Part shown: positions 39,156 to 44,337 of the stretch, one piece after another
Layout: each line of letters begins with the position of its first letter
Position numbering within the stretch: the first letter of the stretch is position 1
DNA from: Mesorhizobium sp. M1B.F.Ca.ET.045.04.1.1
Lineage (GTDB): Bacteria > Pseudomonadota > Alphaproteobacteria > Rhizobiales > Rhizobiaceae
Direction of reading: 5' to 3'
DNA length: 64,000 bases
Assembly: GCF_003952465.1 (NCBI RefSeq)
Contig: NZ_CP034448.1
Location: 3,387,001-3,451,000, forward strand
Notes under the pieces: model-generated
What the model saw: only the letters and a program-made list of their open reading frames with translations
Told to the model about the DNA's origin: nothing
Databases searched by the model: none
Translations under genes and position numbers: made by a program

Positions 39156-40130
39156 ATGAACACCAAACATGCGCCCGTTCTCATCATCGGCTCAGGCCCG
39201 GCCGGCTACACGGCGGCGATCTATGCCGCCCGCGCCATGCTGAAGCCGATGCTCGTCGCTGGTCTGCAGCAGGGCGGCCAGCTGATGATCACCACCGATG
39301 TCGAAAACTATCCGGGCTTTGCCGATCCGATCCAGGGTCCCTGGCTGATGGAGCAAATGGCGAAGCAGGCCGAGCATGTCGGCACGGACATCGTCAACGA
39401 CATCATCACCGAGGTCGACCTCAATGTGCGGCCATTCCGCGCTACCGGCGATTCCGGCACCGTCTACACCGCGGATGCCTTGATCATCGCCACCGGCGCG
39501 CAGGCCAAGTGGCTGGGCATCCCATCGGAGCAGACCTTCATGGGCTTCGGCGTATCGGCCTGCGCCACTTGTGACGGCTTCTTCTATCGCGGCAAGGATG
39601 TCGCGGTGGTCGGCGGCGGCAATTCGGCGGTCGAGGAGGCGCTCTATCTCGCCAACCTCGCCAAGAGCGTCACCGTCATCCACCGGCGCGGCGATTTCCG
39701 CGCCGAGCGCATCCTGCGCGAGCGGCTGTTCAAGAAGGACAATGTCCGCGTCATCTGGGATACCGTCGTCGACGAGATCACCGGGCAGCCGGGCAAGGCG
39801 CCGCTGCCGCCTTCGGTCGAGGGTTTGAAGATGCGCAACGTGGCGACCGGAGAAGTGTCGCGGCTGAAAGTCGATGGCGTCTTCGTCGCGATCGGCCACG
39901 CGCCGGCGGTCGAGCTCTTCGCCGGCAAGCTCAAGCAGAAGCCGAACGGCTATCTGTGGACAGCGCCGGATTCGACCCGCACCGACGTGCCCGGCGTATT
40001 TGCCGCCGGCGATGTCACCGACGATGTCTACCGGCAGGCGGTGACGGCGGCGGGGCTCGGTTGCATGGCTGCGCTCGAGGCGGAAAAATATCTGGCGGGG
40101 ATCGAAGTCCACCGCGAAGCGGCGGAATAA
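39156..40130 (+). CDS. trxB: Thioredoxin-disulfide reductase
   Basis: 324 residues from ATG at 39156. FAD motif VLIIGSGPAGYTAAIYAARA at residues 8-27, redox-active CATC at residues 136-139 (SACATCDGFFY), NADPH motif VVGGGNSAVEEALYLA followed by HRRGDFRAE, and FAAGDVTDDVYRQAVTAAGLGCMAALEA at the C-terminus. Keeps thioredoxin reduced with NADPH. Followed 72 bp downstream by lsrB, the same order known from Sinorhizobium and Agrobacterium. Confidence 0.97.
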   Translation: MNTKHAPVLIIGSGPAGYTAAIYAARAMLKPMLVAGLQQGGQLMITTDVENYPGFADPIQGPWLMEQMAKQAEHVGTDIVNDIITEVDLNVRPFRATGDSGTVYTADALIIATGAQAKWLGIPSEQTFMGFGVSACATCDGFFYRGKDVAVVGGGNSAVEEALYLANLAKSVTVIHRRGDFRAERILRERLFKKDNVRVIWDTVVDEITGQPGKAPLPPSVEGLKMRNVATGEVSRLKVDGVFVAIGHAPAVELFAGKLKQKPNGYLWTAPDSTRTDVPGVFAAGDVTDDVYRQAVTAAGLGCMAALEAEKYLAGIEVHREAAE

Positions 40131-40202: not shown

Positions 40203-41099
40203 ATGGCGCTGGACTGGGACAAGCTACGCGTGTTTCACGCTGCGGCGGAGGCTGGGTCGTTCACCCATGCCGCCGAGACGCTGCATCTGTCGCAATCGGC
40301 GATCTCGCGGCAGGTCAGCGCGCTGGAGCATGACGTCGGCGTGGCGCTGTTCCATCGCCACGCGCGCGGCCTCGTGCTGACCGAGCAGGGCGAGATGCTG
40401 TTCCGCACGGCGCATGACGTGCTGATGAAGCTGGAGACAATCAAGTCGCGGCTGACCGAAACCAAGGACCGCCCCTCCGGCGTGCTGAGGGTGACGACCA
40501 CGGTGGGGCTGGGCGCCGGCTGGCTGACCGAGCGGGTGCAGGAATTCATAGAGCTCTATCCCGAGATCAGCCTGCAGCTGATCCTCGCCAACGAGGAACT
40601 CGACCTCACCATGCGCCAGGCCGATTGCGCCATTCGGCTGCGGCAGCCGCAGCAGCCGGATCTCATCCAGCGCCGGCTGTTCACCGTGCATTTCCATCTC
40701 TACGCGGCACCCTCCTATGTGGCGAAGTTCGGCAAGCCGGCCTCGATCGCCGAGCTCAGGAACCATCGCATCGTCACCTTCGGCGTGCCGGTGCCCTCGC
40801 ATCTGTCGGAACTGAACTGGCTGGAGACGGTCGGCGATTTCGAGGGCGGCCAAAGGGTGCCGACGCTGCAGATCAACGACATCCTGTCGATCAAGCGCGC
40901 AGTTCAGGGCGGCGCCGGCATCGCCATGCTGCCGGACTACGTCATCAGCAAGGACTCGAACTTGGTGCAGTTGCTGCCCGAGACCGAGGTGCCGTCCTTC
41001 GACACCTATTTCGCCTATCCGGACGCGATGAAGAACCAGGCGAAGCTGCATGTATTCCGCGATTTCATCATCGCGAAGGCGCGCAGCTGGTCGTTCTGA
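40203..41099 (+). CDS. lsrB: LysR-family redox/symbiosis regulator LsrB
   Basis: 298 residues. HTH region LDWDKLRVFHAAAEAGSFTHAAETLHLSQSAISRQVSALEHDVG is close to my memory of S. meliloti LsrB, and the location directly after trxB is the conserved rhizobial context. In S. meliloti and Agrobacterium LsrB activates glutathione and LPS-related genes and is needed for nodulation or oxidative stress resistance; the same role is inferred here. The proximity of the heptose/LPS gene block is notable. SD GAGGGGA is just upstream of ATG. Confidence 0.85.
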   Translation: MALDWDKLRVFHAAAEAGSFTHAAETLHLSQSAISRQVSALEHDVGVALFHRHARGLVLTEQGEMLFRTAHDVLMKLETIKSRLTETKDRPSGVLRVTTTVGLGAGWLTERVQEFIELYPEISLQLILANEELDLTMRQADCAIRLRQPQQPDLIQRRLFTVHFHLYAAPSYVAKFGKPASIAELRNHRIVTFGVPVPSHLSELNWLETVGDFEGGQRVPTLQINDILSIKRAVQGGAGIAMLPDYVISKDSNLVQLLPETEVPSFDTYFAYPDAMKNQAKLHVFRDFIIAKARSWSF

Positions 41100-41119: not shown

Positions 41120-41617
41120 CTATCCGCGCCAGGGTGTGATGCGCGGCAACCAGCAGGGAACGGCGCGGCGGTAGGTTTCGTACTCTGCGCCATAGCGGCG
41201 GGCGAGTGTCGGCTCCTCGTAGACTTTGACGAAGGAGATCATCGCTGCCGCAGCTATCAGGCCGTAGACGAACACCGCTCCGCTCGAAAAGATGAGCACC
41301 TGGCCGAGGATGATCGATAGCACCGCGACATACATGGGGTTACGCACGTGGCGATAGATGCCGCCGACGACCAGTTTCTCGGTCGGAGCCACGGGAGCGG
41401 GCGTGCCAAGTCCCTCAAAGGCGAAGCGGGCGAAGGCGTGAACCAGGATCCCTGCCGCCCCGGCCACAAGGATCCAGCCTACGGGCACGAAACCGGGCAC
41501 GGTGGACAGCGGCATGCGATAATGGTCGGTCAGCAGCCAGGGTATCAGCCCTGCAACCACGCCGGGTGCAGCAACGAGGAATAGCGCGCTGCCGGCGATT
41601 GCCGAAAAAGTTCGCAT
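41120..41617 (-). CDS. Isoprenylcysteine/phospholipid methyltransferase-like membrane protein
   Basis: 165 residues from ATG at 41617 with GGAGGGACTG upstream. Four hydrophobic segments (SAIAGSALFLVAAPGVVAGLIPWLL; GFVPVGWILVAGAAGILVHAFARF; MYVAVLSIILGQVLIF; AVFVYGLIAAAAMISFV), with the conserved ICMT/PEMT signature GGIYRHVRNPMYVAV and EEPTLARRYGAEYETYRRAVPCW at the C-terminus. SAM-dependent methyltransferase of unknown substrate in the inner membrane. Confidence 0.88.
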   Translation of the reverse strand: MRTFSAIAGSALFLVAAPGVVAGLIPWLLTDHYRMPLSTVPGFVPVGWILVAGAAGILVHAFARFAFEGLGTPAPVAPTEKLVVGGIYRHVRNPMYVAVLSIILGQVLIFSSGAVFVYGLIAAAAMISFVKVYEEPTLARRYGAEYETYRRAVPCWLPRITPWRG

Positions 41618-41837
41618 CAGTCCCTCCTGCCGCAAAAGTAAACGCAGCCTGCCCGAATCCGCATCATTTTGATTTCACGCGTTTTACGGGGCAGAATCGG
41701 ACCTGATTTGCATATCAGCAATCGCTTTCACGCTGGAAAGGCACACGATTCGGCGATTTTTTCTGGTCCTATCGGTTCTTGGGACGGGTTGGACCACAGC
41801 CTGCGTCTTTTTGCATGCGTGTGTTGCAAAATAGATG

Positions 41838-41866
41838 CTTGTTTCTTGGGCATGATGAGCACATAT
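41838..41866 (+). promoter_or_regulatory. Candidate sigma-70 promoter of the small RNA
   Basis: CTTGTT (41838-41843), 17-bp spacer, ACATAT (41861-41866), compared with rhizobial CTTGAC-N17-CTATAT. Predicted transcription start near 41873, at the 5' side of the structured RNA. Confidence 0.45.
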
Positions 41867-41872
41867 ATAGTT

Positions 41873-41990
41873 CATCTCCAGGGCGCGTTCTCCTCCCATT
41901 AGCGCCCTCGAGTGTTCCCCTCTGGAGGTTAGCCCTAATCGGCACTTCCAATCAAACTCAGCCGGATCTTTATTGATCCGGCTTTTTTGT
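41873..41990 (+). ncRNA. Candidate trans-acting small RNA with exposed CTCCTCCC loop
   Basis: About 115 nt between a promoter-like sequence and a strong terminator. First hairpin: stem AGGGCGC / GCGCCCT (41880-41886 with 41902-41908) presenting a 15-nt loop with CTCCTCCC (41890-41897), an anti-Shine-Dalgarno motif. A second C-rich segment, CCCCTCTGGAGG, follows. Terminator: GCCGGATC / GATCCGGC (41961-41968 with 41975-41982) and TTTTTT. This organisation is that of alphaproteobacterial CCUCCUCCC-type (cuckoo/alpha-r) sRNAs, which act on ribosome-binding sites. The exact family was not checked. Confidence 0.65.
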
Positions 41991-42233
41991 TGCGCCGAGA
42001 TCACGGCGAGGCCGGAAATGCGTGAGCGAAAGCCACGTAACAGTGACATGTAACATCGGGTAACATGTCGCGGACGCACTCTATCGATTAAGTAGATGAT
42101 AGGACGCGGTTGGTCCGTTCGGGAGATGGGGGCATCACTCGGACAGGCCGGGCTCAGGCAGCTACCGCGTCCGAACCATTTCCTGATGCGGCGGACCTGC
42201 CGTTGCCTCCCAGGAAGACGGTCCGCAATAAGA

Positions 42234-42266
42234 AACGGCGTCCGGATGATCCGGGCGCCGTTTTTC
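42234..42266. terminator. Rho-independent terminator (plus strand, possibly bidirectional)
   Basis: Stem AACGGCGTCCGG / CCGGGCGCCGTT with one mismatch (42234-42245 with 42251-42262), followed by TTTTT on the plus strand. It also lies 20 bases after the minus-strand EF-G-like stop, where the minus side reads GTTTCTTATT, so it may serve that gene. If used on the plus strand it would end a second short transcript from 42000-42230. Confidence 0.6.
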
Positions 42267-42285
42267 ATTCCTCAGCCAAAATCAG

Positions 42286-44337
42286 TCATGCAGCCTTGCC
42301 GTTGGCGTTCATCGCCTCGTCGGCCAGGCGCCCCGTCAGCTCGGCCATATGGTCGAAGCCGGCCTTGTAGCTGGCGACGCCCGCCGTCGCCGAACGCAAC
42401 TCGATGATCAGGTCGCCGATCTCGGCCTGGGGCATGGTCGCCTCGACCACGTCCCAGCCGGGCCAGTCGGGCCGCGCGTCATAGCCAAGAATCTGGCCGC
42501 GCCGCTGCGGGATCAACGCGATGATCTTCGAGGTTGCATCGGATGGCGTGACGATTTCGACCTTCATGATCGGCTCCAGCAGAACCGGCGAACAGGCCGC
42601 CATGCCTTCTTTCATCGCCAGCTTTGCCGCCATCTGGAAGGCCATGTCGGAGGAGTCGACCGCATGGTAGGAGCCGTCCGATAGGTTGACGGCGACATCC
42701 ACCACGGGGAAGCCGAGTGGACCGGTCTTCAGATAGTCGCGGATGCCCGTCTCCACCGACTGGATGTAGGTCTTGGGCACGACCCCGCCGGTGATGGTGT
42801 CGGTGAATTGGAAGCCCGAGCCGCGGGGCAGCGGCTTGATCTCGATCACCACGTCGCCGAATTGGCCGTGGCCGCCCGACTGCTTCTTGTGGCGGCCGCG
42901 CTGCTGCGCGGATTTGCGGATCGTCTCGCGATAAGGCACCGCCGGCGAATGGCCTTCGATCGGGATCTGGTTCTTGCCCTCCAGGCGCTCGCGCACAACG
43001 CGCAGGTGCATTTCGCCGTGCCCCGACAACACGGTTTCCGCGGAGTCCTGGTTGTGGTGCAGGTTGAGCGAGGGGTCTTCCTCGGCAAGCCTCTGGATAG
43101 CCGCCGACATCTTGACCTCGTCCTTGCGTTCCTTGGGCCGCAGCGCGAAGGCAAACACCGGCTGCGGCGGCTCCAGCGTGAACAGCGGCTTGATGCCGCC
43201 CTTGGCCGAACTCAGCGTCTGGCCAGTCCTGACGTTGTCGAGCTTGCCGAGCGCGACGGTGTCGCCAGCCATGGCGGACGGCAGCTTCAGCTGATCCTTG
43301 CCCAGCATCTTGTAAATGCCGGAGACCTTGGTCGTGTCGCCGTTGGAGAGGAAAAGCTCGGCCGCATCGGCCAATTGGCCGGAAAGCACGCGCGACACCG
43401 ACAGCTTGCCGCCATGCGCCGTGTGGATAGTCTTCATCACCTGCACGACCGTCTGGCTGCCGTCCGGTACACTCAGGCGCTTGCGGGTCGCCTCGACATC
43501 CGGCGCATCGTGGCGGATCGTCTTCAACAGGCGCAGCACGCCATTGCCCTTCTCCGCCGTGCCGATCAGCACCGGCGTCACCGTGCCGGCCCGGAGGTCG
43601 GCGGCAAGGTCATCGAAGATCGCATCTTTCGGCGGCTCGATCTCCTCCAGGAGCTGTTCCATCAGCTGGTCGTCATGGTCGGCCAACGTCTCCAGCATCG
43701 AGAAGCGCGCCTCGAGCTCGCGCGCCTTGTCGTCGTCGGGAATCTCGGCGACCTGGCTTTCGGCGTATTCGCGGTACACATAGGCGCGCTCCAGCGCGAG
43801 ATCGATCGAGCCGATGACGACGCCGTCCTTGCGCAGTGGGATCTGGCGCAAGAGCAGCGGCGCGGAACTCGCCGGCTGCAGCATCTTGAGCGTCTCGCGA
43901 ACGCCGGCGATCGCCTTGTCCACCTTGTTGAGGAACAGGATGCGCGGCACGCCGAGATCGTCGAGCTTGCGCATGATGAGTTGCAGCGCGGGAATCTTCT
44001 TTTCATCCGCTTCGGCCACGACCACGGCGACATCGCAGGCGGCAAGCACCGGCTCGGCCTCGAAGGCGAATTCGATGGAACCGGGACAATCGACGAAGGT
44101 GAACTGCTCGCCCATGAACTCCGTGGTGGCAAAGGTCGCCTCGACGCTCATGGCGTGGGCGCGGGCCTCCGACGAGTGATCGGAAACGGTGTTGCCCGAT
44201 GAGACGGGATTCTGGCGGGGGATGGCGCCCGTGCGGGCGAGGATTGCTTCGAGAAGTGTCGTCTTACCGCTTGCGAAGGGACCGACTATGGCAATGCATT
44301 TCGGTCCCGTGCGTCGTCCTCCGGCGCGAGTACCCAT
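42286..44337 (-). CDS. Elongation factor G-like GTPase (non-canonical EF-G paralogue)
   Basis: 683 residues with the complete EF-G domain order (G, II, III, IV, V). Switch motifs deviate: G1 is GPFASGKTT (residues 19-27; usual AHIDAGKTT), G3 is DCPGSIEF (83-90; usual DTPGHVDF), so the catalytic His is Ser; G4 NKVD (137-140) is normal. Domain IV has GGHGQFGDVVIEIKPLPRGSGFQF, close to canonical. This is the EF-G-like paralogue found in many rhizobia; it is unlikely to be the main translocase because str-operon genes are absent here. Function unproven. Confidence 0.88.
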   Translation of the reverse strand: MGTRAGGRRTGPKCIAIVGPFASGKTTLLEAILARTGAIPRQNPVSSGNTVSDHSSEARAHAMSVEATFATTEFMGEQFTFVDCPGSIEFAFEAEPVLAACDVAVVVAEADEKKIPALQLIMRKLDDLGVPRILFLNKVDKAIAGVRETLKMLQPASSAPLLLRQIPLRKDGVVIGSIDLALERAYVYREYAESQVAEIPDDDKARELEARFSMLETLADHDDQLMEQLLEEIEPPKDAIFDDLAADLRAGTVTPVLIGTAEKGNGVLRLLKTIRHDAPDVEATRKRLSVPDGSQTVVQVMKTIHTAHGGKLSVSRVLSGQLADAAELFLSNGDTTKVSGIYKMLGKDQLKLPSAMAGDTVALGKLDNVRTGQTLSSAKGGIKPLFTLEPPQPVFAFALRPKERKDEVKMSAAIQRLAEEDPSLNLHHNQDSAETVLSGHGEMHLRVVRERLEGKNQIPIEGHSPAVPYRETIRKSAQQRGRHKKQSGGHGQFGDVVIEIKPLPRGSGFQFTDTITGGVVPKTYIQSVETGIRDYLKTGPLGFPVVDVAVNLSDGSYHAVDSSDMAFQMAAKLAMKEGMAACSPVLLEPIMKVEIVTPSDATSKIIALIPQRRGQILGYDARPDWPGWDVVEATMPQAEIGDLIIELRSATAGVASYKAGFDHMAELTGRLADEAMNANGKAA

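Follow-up and report, generated by a model that had tools for sequence, protein, structure and literature searches.

An AbcR1 small RNA and a conserved RNA-like element downstream of it, beside a probable lsrB gene in Mesorhizobium

The window analysed here (64,000 nt of Mesorhizobium sp. M1B.F.Ca.ET.045.04.1.1, contig NZ_CP034448.1, 3,387,001 to 3,451,000; positions below count from its first letter) carries, on sequence grounds, a well supported and ordinary AbcR1 small RNA at 41874-41988 on the + strand, followed on the same strand by a second conserved element that is probably a separate small RNA. The neighbouring element, rather than AbcR1, is the part worth following: there is about an even chance that 42037-42265 represents an undescribed sRNA family, with a GTAAC-repeat activator site of its own and a covarying stem domain, kept downstream of AbcR. 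AbcR1 itself is not counted as a new kind of RNA, because its family, ar15, is in Rfam and a published figure legend lists a Mesorhizobium loti member (PMC3712013); a passage in a survey of Mesorhizobium strain 7653R states that AbcR1/2 were undiscovered in that strain (PMC5596092).

Identity and fold of AbcR1

Rfam model RF02345 (ar15, AbcR family) matches 41874-41988 (+) over its entire length (1-112 of 112) with 48.6 bits (E 7.2e-7; curated gathering cut-off 40 bits), and it is the sole match above a curated cut-off among the 4227 families scanned against the window. The score is modest, lying below the 51.4 bits of a second copy in the same genome and the 99-109 bits of three copies in relatives. 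The match bears out the original prediction of an alphaproteobacterial anti-Shine-Dalgarno sRNA, which had pointed to a promoter-like CTTGTT-N17-ACATAT, a CTCCTCCC hairpin and a terminator in series; all three are present in the sequence.

The 116-nt RNA has a predicted folding energy of -46.8 kcal/mol, compared with a mean of -25.55 (sd 3) for shuffled sequences (z -7.08), and none of 200 shuffles folds as well. In the minimum-energy structure two motifs are left unpaired: aSD1 (CUCCUCCC; 41890-41897) in the first loop, and aSD2 (UUCCCCUC; 41915-41922) between hairpins 1 and 2. Identical 8-mers bear these names in PMC8844928, and what had been proposed as a second C-rich targeting segment is this known aSD2 (M2) motif. 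The sequence CTCCTCCC at 41890-41897 is the only + strand occurrence in the whole window, with zero on the - strand. An intrinsic terminator at 41960-41988, made of a 9-pair stem (41960-41983) and T6, closes the RNA.

It is highly improbable that 41874-41988 belongs to ar14 (RF02344), or to another family of sRNAs with a CCUCCUCCC loop, instead of to AbcR. Ar14 does have the same anti-Shine-Dalgarno loop, CUCCUCCC, in its 5′ hairpin, and its model aligns here from end to end, though weakly; the score, however, is 20.2 bits against a cut-off of 58.8, whereas ar15 exceeds its own, and aSD2, an LsrB box and a trxB/LysR setting are all found as in AbcR. The Rfam search suggested earlier, with cuckoo and ar14 in mind, yielded ar15/AbcR and not ar14; no match named cuckoo appeared in the window scan (4227 families). 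A Betaproteobacteria_toxic_sRNA match was far under its cut-off and was also rejected. A BLAST comparison of the AbcR1 element with plasmids gave zero matches.

The closest published counterpart is S. meliloti AbcR1 (Smr15C, ar15, RF02345), with which the window RNA shares both 8-nt aSD motifs, a three-hairpin fold, a position near lsrB, a sigma-70 promoter with N17 spacing and an LsrB box from -61 to -49. In S. meliloti, AbcR1 and AbcR2 are described as lying in tandem between SMc01226 and lsrB (PMC3712013), whereas the window locus has one ar15 copy, followed by a different RNA-like element, and the second ar15 copy is elsewhere. The Brucella abortus pair AbcR1/AbcR2 carries motifs M1 (CUCCCA) and M2 (GUUCCC), both also found in the window's AbcR1, and VtlR is reported to control one of the two; the arrangement differs, the two genes being on separate chromosomes, abcR1 on II and abcR2 on I (PMC5461406).

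Promoter and LsrB/VtlR box

The sigma-70-like promoter occupies 41838-41866 (+), with the -35 element CTTGTT at 41838-41843 and the -10 element ACATAT at 41861-41866. Its assignment rests on its likeness to the alphaproteobacterial PabcR1 promoter, given for S. meliloti as CTTGAC-N17-CTATAT (PMC8844928), because a generic sigma-70 scan called 0 promoters here (shuffles gave 0.6).

Just upstream, at 41809-41831 (+), a palindrome TTTTGCA...TGCAAAA forms a putative LsrB/VtlR site. Inside it, at 41813-41825, is GCATgcgTGtgtT, which fits the published box consensus GCAT-N3-TG-N3-T (PMC7486931, PMC8844928). The S. meliloti consensus is placed between -61 and -49 of PabcR1 (PMC8844928), and the predicted box takes the same position if 41874, where the ar15 match begins, is the transcription start, as the sequence suggests. 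The short box alone is common (6 on the + strand and 5 on the - strand of the window), but the palindrome pattern has a single exact match in the genome, the abcR1 site. Allowing mismatches gives 21 rows in the same genome, this exact one included; 13 of the 20 inexact ones are variants of a repeat, TGCATGTCGTT, so no LsrB regulon is drawn from them. The repeat around TGCATGTCGTT (e.g., L125-L128) resembles the LsrB palindrome at 2-3 mismatches.

Gene neighborhood

The sRNA had been placed between a LysR gene and an EF-G-like gene, and this interval is confirmed. On the + strand, trxB (thioredoxin reductase; 39156-40130; TIGR01292, E 3.7e-118, over cut-off) is followed by a LysR-type regulator (40203-41099) identified by LysR family matches. 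The LysR gene is separated from the sRNA by a methyltransferase-like gene (41120-41635, - strand), and the EF-G-like gene (42286-44337, - strand) lies beyond the sRNA.

Among the 25 NCBIfam families listed for the LysR protein none is over its cut-off, and there is no LsrB call. In Rhizobiales, lsrB is reported to be consistently co-localised with trxB (PMC11975290), and the trxB neighbour together with the position of abcR1 makes LsrB/VtlR the probable identity of the gene. The lsrB-trxB neighborhood associated with AbcR is found here, with trxB over its cut-off and the LysR gene as the probable lsrB. The probable LsrB has one cysteine only, C142. The LsrB proteins of A. tumefaciens, S. meliloti, and B. 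abortus are described as sharing the conserved residues C144 and C273 (PMC11975290); on this count of cysteines, a C144-C273 disulfide switch would be impossible in the protein of the window.

Conservation of AbcR1 and other ar15 copies

Among 61 genomes (the strain's own and 60 relatives), RF02345 is matched at E ≤ 0.01 in 40, and over cut-off in 37. All 37 genomes of the window's genus have a match, as do, weakly, 3 of the 24 others. From these matches 35 same-genus loci (26 distinct sRNA sequences) were picked by a span of 113-115 nt, a choice that favours conserved copies; one of the 36 same-genus relatives (G007, 86% complete) had no match of that span and was omitted. Loop conservation in relatives had been set as a test of the original prediction, and aSD1, along with aSD2, is kept in 35 of 35 loci. 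The LsrB box is exact in 32, and off by one base in L050, L051, and L054.

Measured in 10-nt bins, the 35 relatives match the window with an identity of 0.81-1.00 across 41793-41992. Identity is 0.21-0.71 over 41613-41762, then 0.97, 0.53, and 0.72 in the three bins to 41792, and 0.27-0.57 downstream, over 41993-42032. This profile, set against flanks mostly at 0.2-0.7, also bears on whether the features at 41838-41990 are a chance series that is not transcribed. The empty promoter scan would fit such a series; against it stand the conservation, the ar15 E-value, and the fold z-score, which leave it scarcely credible.

Besides the second copy over cut-off (L001, C1:6665972-6666070), which lies away from lsrB, the genome has another ar15 match below it (28.2 bits). 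In 14 of 20 AbcR rows compared (L001 and related loci) the upstream region contains TTTTTGGAA, mostly followed by a TTCGT stretch, possibly a different promoter or activator site. Extra ar15 copies in three relatives (L007, L008, and L009, in G016:C3, G019:C436, and G031:C2) score 99-109 bits, where other copies near or over cut-off score 38-62; they sit on contigs of 36-453 kb, and were possibly acquired from other rhizobia.

Proposed function of AbcR1

We consider it very likely, as the best explanation overall, that the locus is abcR1, activated by LsrB and repressing ABC-transporter and metabolic mRNAs through its aSD motifs. Anatomy, family match and conservation were computed here, while LsrB control, Hfq dependence and target repression are carried over from studies in S. 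meliloti, A. tumefaciens, and Brucella. By analogy with these, LsrB (VtlR), the LysR regulator encoded nearby, would bind the box at -61 to -49 and activate the sigma-70 promoter. The RNA of about 115 nt would then expose two motifs, CUCCUCCC in the first loop and UUCCCCUC in the stretch that separates hairpins 1 and 2; assisted by Hfq, either motif would pair with the ribosome-binding sites of ABC-transporter and metabolic mRNAs, lowering their translation.

A target pattern, TGGGAGGAG-N3-10-ATG, occurs at 14 places in the genome (13 distinct). Apart from three short ones (18, 19, and 90 aa) the proteins were scanned, ten in all; Pfam recognises 8, and 4 of the 8 belong to ABC transporters (an ATPase, a permease, and two solute-binding proteins). 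The control pattern AAGGAGGAA occurs at 16 places; all 9 proteins of at least 60 aa that were scanned have Pfam matches, and 1 of the 9 is an ABC solute-binding protein, while another (L162) apparently reflects a pattern match inside a gene. In this small test the excess of ABC-transporter genes (4/8 vs. 1/9) is in the expected direction, with few genes.

A second conserved element downstream of AbcR1

Anatomy. The same identity profile over the 35 same-genus loci shows a second conserved block at 42033-42262 (bins 0.65-0.97). It opens with three GTAAC direct repeats (42037-42064, +), a pattern with one match in the strain's own genome and none elsewhere in it at up to 3 mismatches. No regulator for these repeats was found among the published motifs sought; the CenR motif TGA-N8-TGA, as given in PMC9275681, is dissimilar and was rejected. 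The RNA-like element proper (42102-42265, +) consists of a domain (42102-42172), a hairpin (42191-42226) and a terminator (42235-42265), and is arranged tail to tail with the EF-G-like gene. From 42102 it reads GGACGCGGU...ACCGCGUCC; GAUG-GGGG-CAUC forms the core of an inner hairpin, and the second hairpin contains CCUCCC (42206-42211). The proposed family would have an invariant GAUG-GGGG-CAUC hairpin, in most cases with a CCUCCC hairpin and a terminator after it, and its place downstream of AbcR would be shared by several genera of the bacterial family.

Distribution. The element is present in 35 of 35 same-genus loci, in single copy in the strain's own genome. In a draw of genomes from the family it was found in 23 of 247 (13 of 109 genera), and in a draw from the order in 8 of 297, all of the window's genus. 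Carriers that could be named are Aquamicrobium defluvii, Mesorhizobium sp. L-8-3 and a Mesorhizobium MAG; a fourth, Limoniibacter endophyticus, has just the 5′ domain. The matches at L112 and L121 are partly by construction, because the search model (R1) includes L084 and L092, whose stretches are identical to them. L122, which scores 36.9 bits but has no core motif, was excluded. Six of 21 pattern matches were inspected; L087 and L089, which are without AbcR, look like chance.

In all 18 out-of-genus loci inspected (L104-L121), AbcR motifs, meaning GTTCCC paired with CTCCTCCC or TCCTCCCA, lie 191-491 bases upstream of the core on the same strand, and cmscan of eight such loci from eight genera put ar15 over cut-off in seven (not L119). 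By eye, all three GTAAC repeats are exact in 14 of these loci; in L113, L118, and L120 one repeat is altered, and L121 has two. L112 has three consecutive ar15 copies (494-610, 762-876, and 1059-1174) upstream of the element, and the L-8-3 locus (L084) has at least two. One genome (G030) contains two extra 5′ domains on the - strand (1501-1573 of L102 and 1501-1573 of L103), with neither AbcR motifs nor GTAAC repeats nearby.

Covariation and strand. The in-genus alignment (36 rows) yields little covariation in RNAalifold because the stems hardly vary, so a wider alignment was needed. This alignment (A3) leaves out near-duplicates as well as the short type seen in Limoniibacter (L092, L121), and has 30 rows. 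In it 93.3% of cells pair, and 8 of 20 pairs show changes on both sides; such cells number 40, against a shuffled mean of 13.2, with 0 of 500 shuffles as high. When the partners are shifted by 1-3 columns, the paired fraction drops to 28-51%. On the other side, 8-11 of the 30 rows do not form the three outermost pairs of the inner stem, and the covariation terms that RNAalifold gives are small.

One argument against a separate + strand RNA is that the EF-G-like gene ends, on the - strand, at 42286; the hairpin at 42235-42260 could be its terminator and 42037-42265 merely its 3′ end, and the - strand of this block also beats shuffles (z -2.86). The + strand folds better, however (z -4.82), and the GTAAC repeats precede the + strand 5′ end in the loci seen. 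The variable pairs are also informative: columns 27-44 are GU in 14 of 30 rows and columns 9-74 are UG in 9 of 30, combinations that would mismatch on the - strand and therefore point to the + strand. An explanation by the EF-G-like gene is thus unlikely, and a separate small RNA remains the probable reading.

The CCUCCC hairpin. Evidence for this part is weaker than for the covarying domain, and on predicted folds it is a candidate for an anti-Shine-Dalgarno role. YCUCCC occurs in 34 of the 36 in-genus rows, with at least 4 of its 6 bases unpaired in 21 of 34 when the full element is folded, and in 15 of 34 for the hairpin alone. Of 20 further loci (the 18 out-of-genus ones and same-genus L100 and L101), 18 have it, one of them (L120) in the linker and not the hairpin; it is open in 15 of 18 full folds and in 16 of 18 folds of the hairpin alone. 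The window's own CCUCCC is partly paired in the predicted fold, and half paired when the hairpin is folded alone.

Known or new. No Rfam family is over cut-off at the second element, either in the window scan or in the eight loci from eight genera. A CsrC match at 42230-42274 was rejected as below cut-off and covering the terminator hairpin only. BLAST against plasmids gave zero matches, and no description of the element was found in open-licence literature. The element may already have been detected by the M. huakuii survey, which reports unannotated sRNAs, nine of them Northern-tested (PMC5596092); the strand pattern of its MH_s25 and MH_s39 is compatible.

Implications

In Rhizobiales that live with plants or animals, AbcR RNAs adjust the uptake of nutrients, and with an LsrB box, abcR1, and both motifs present at this locus, the AbcR regulon of the genus is directly testable. 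The second element may support or oppose AbcR1, for instance through competition for shared ribosome-binding sites; more speculatively, its GGGG loop could pair with CCUCCC stretches, either within the element itself or in AbcR1. If it is expressed, the lsrB-abcR locus of this clade would carry a second, separately controlled RNA.
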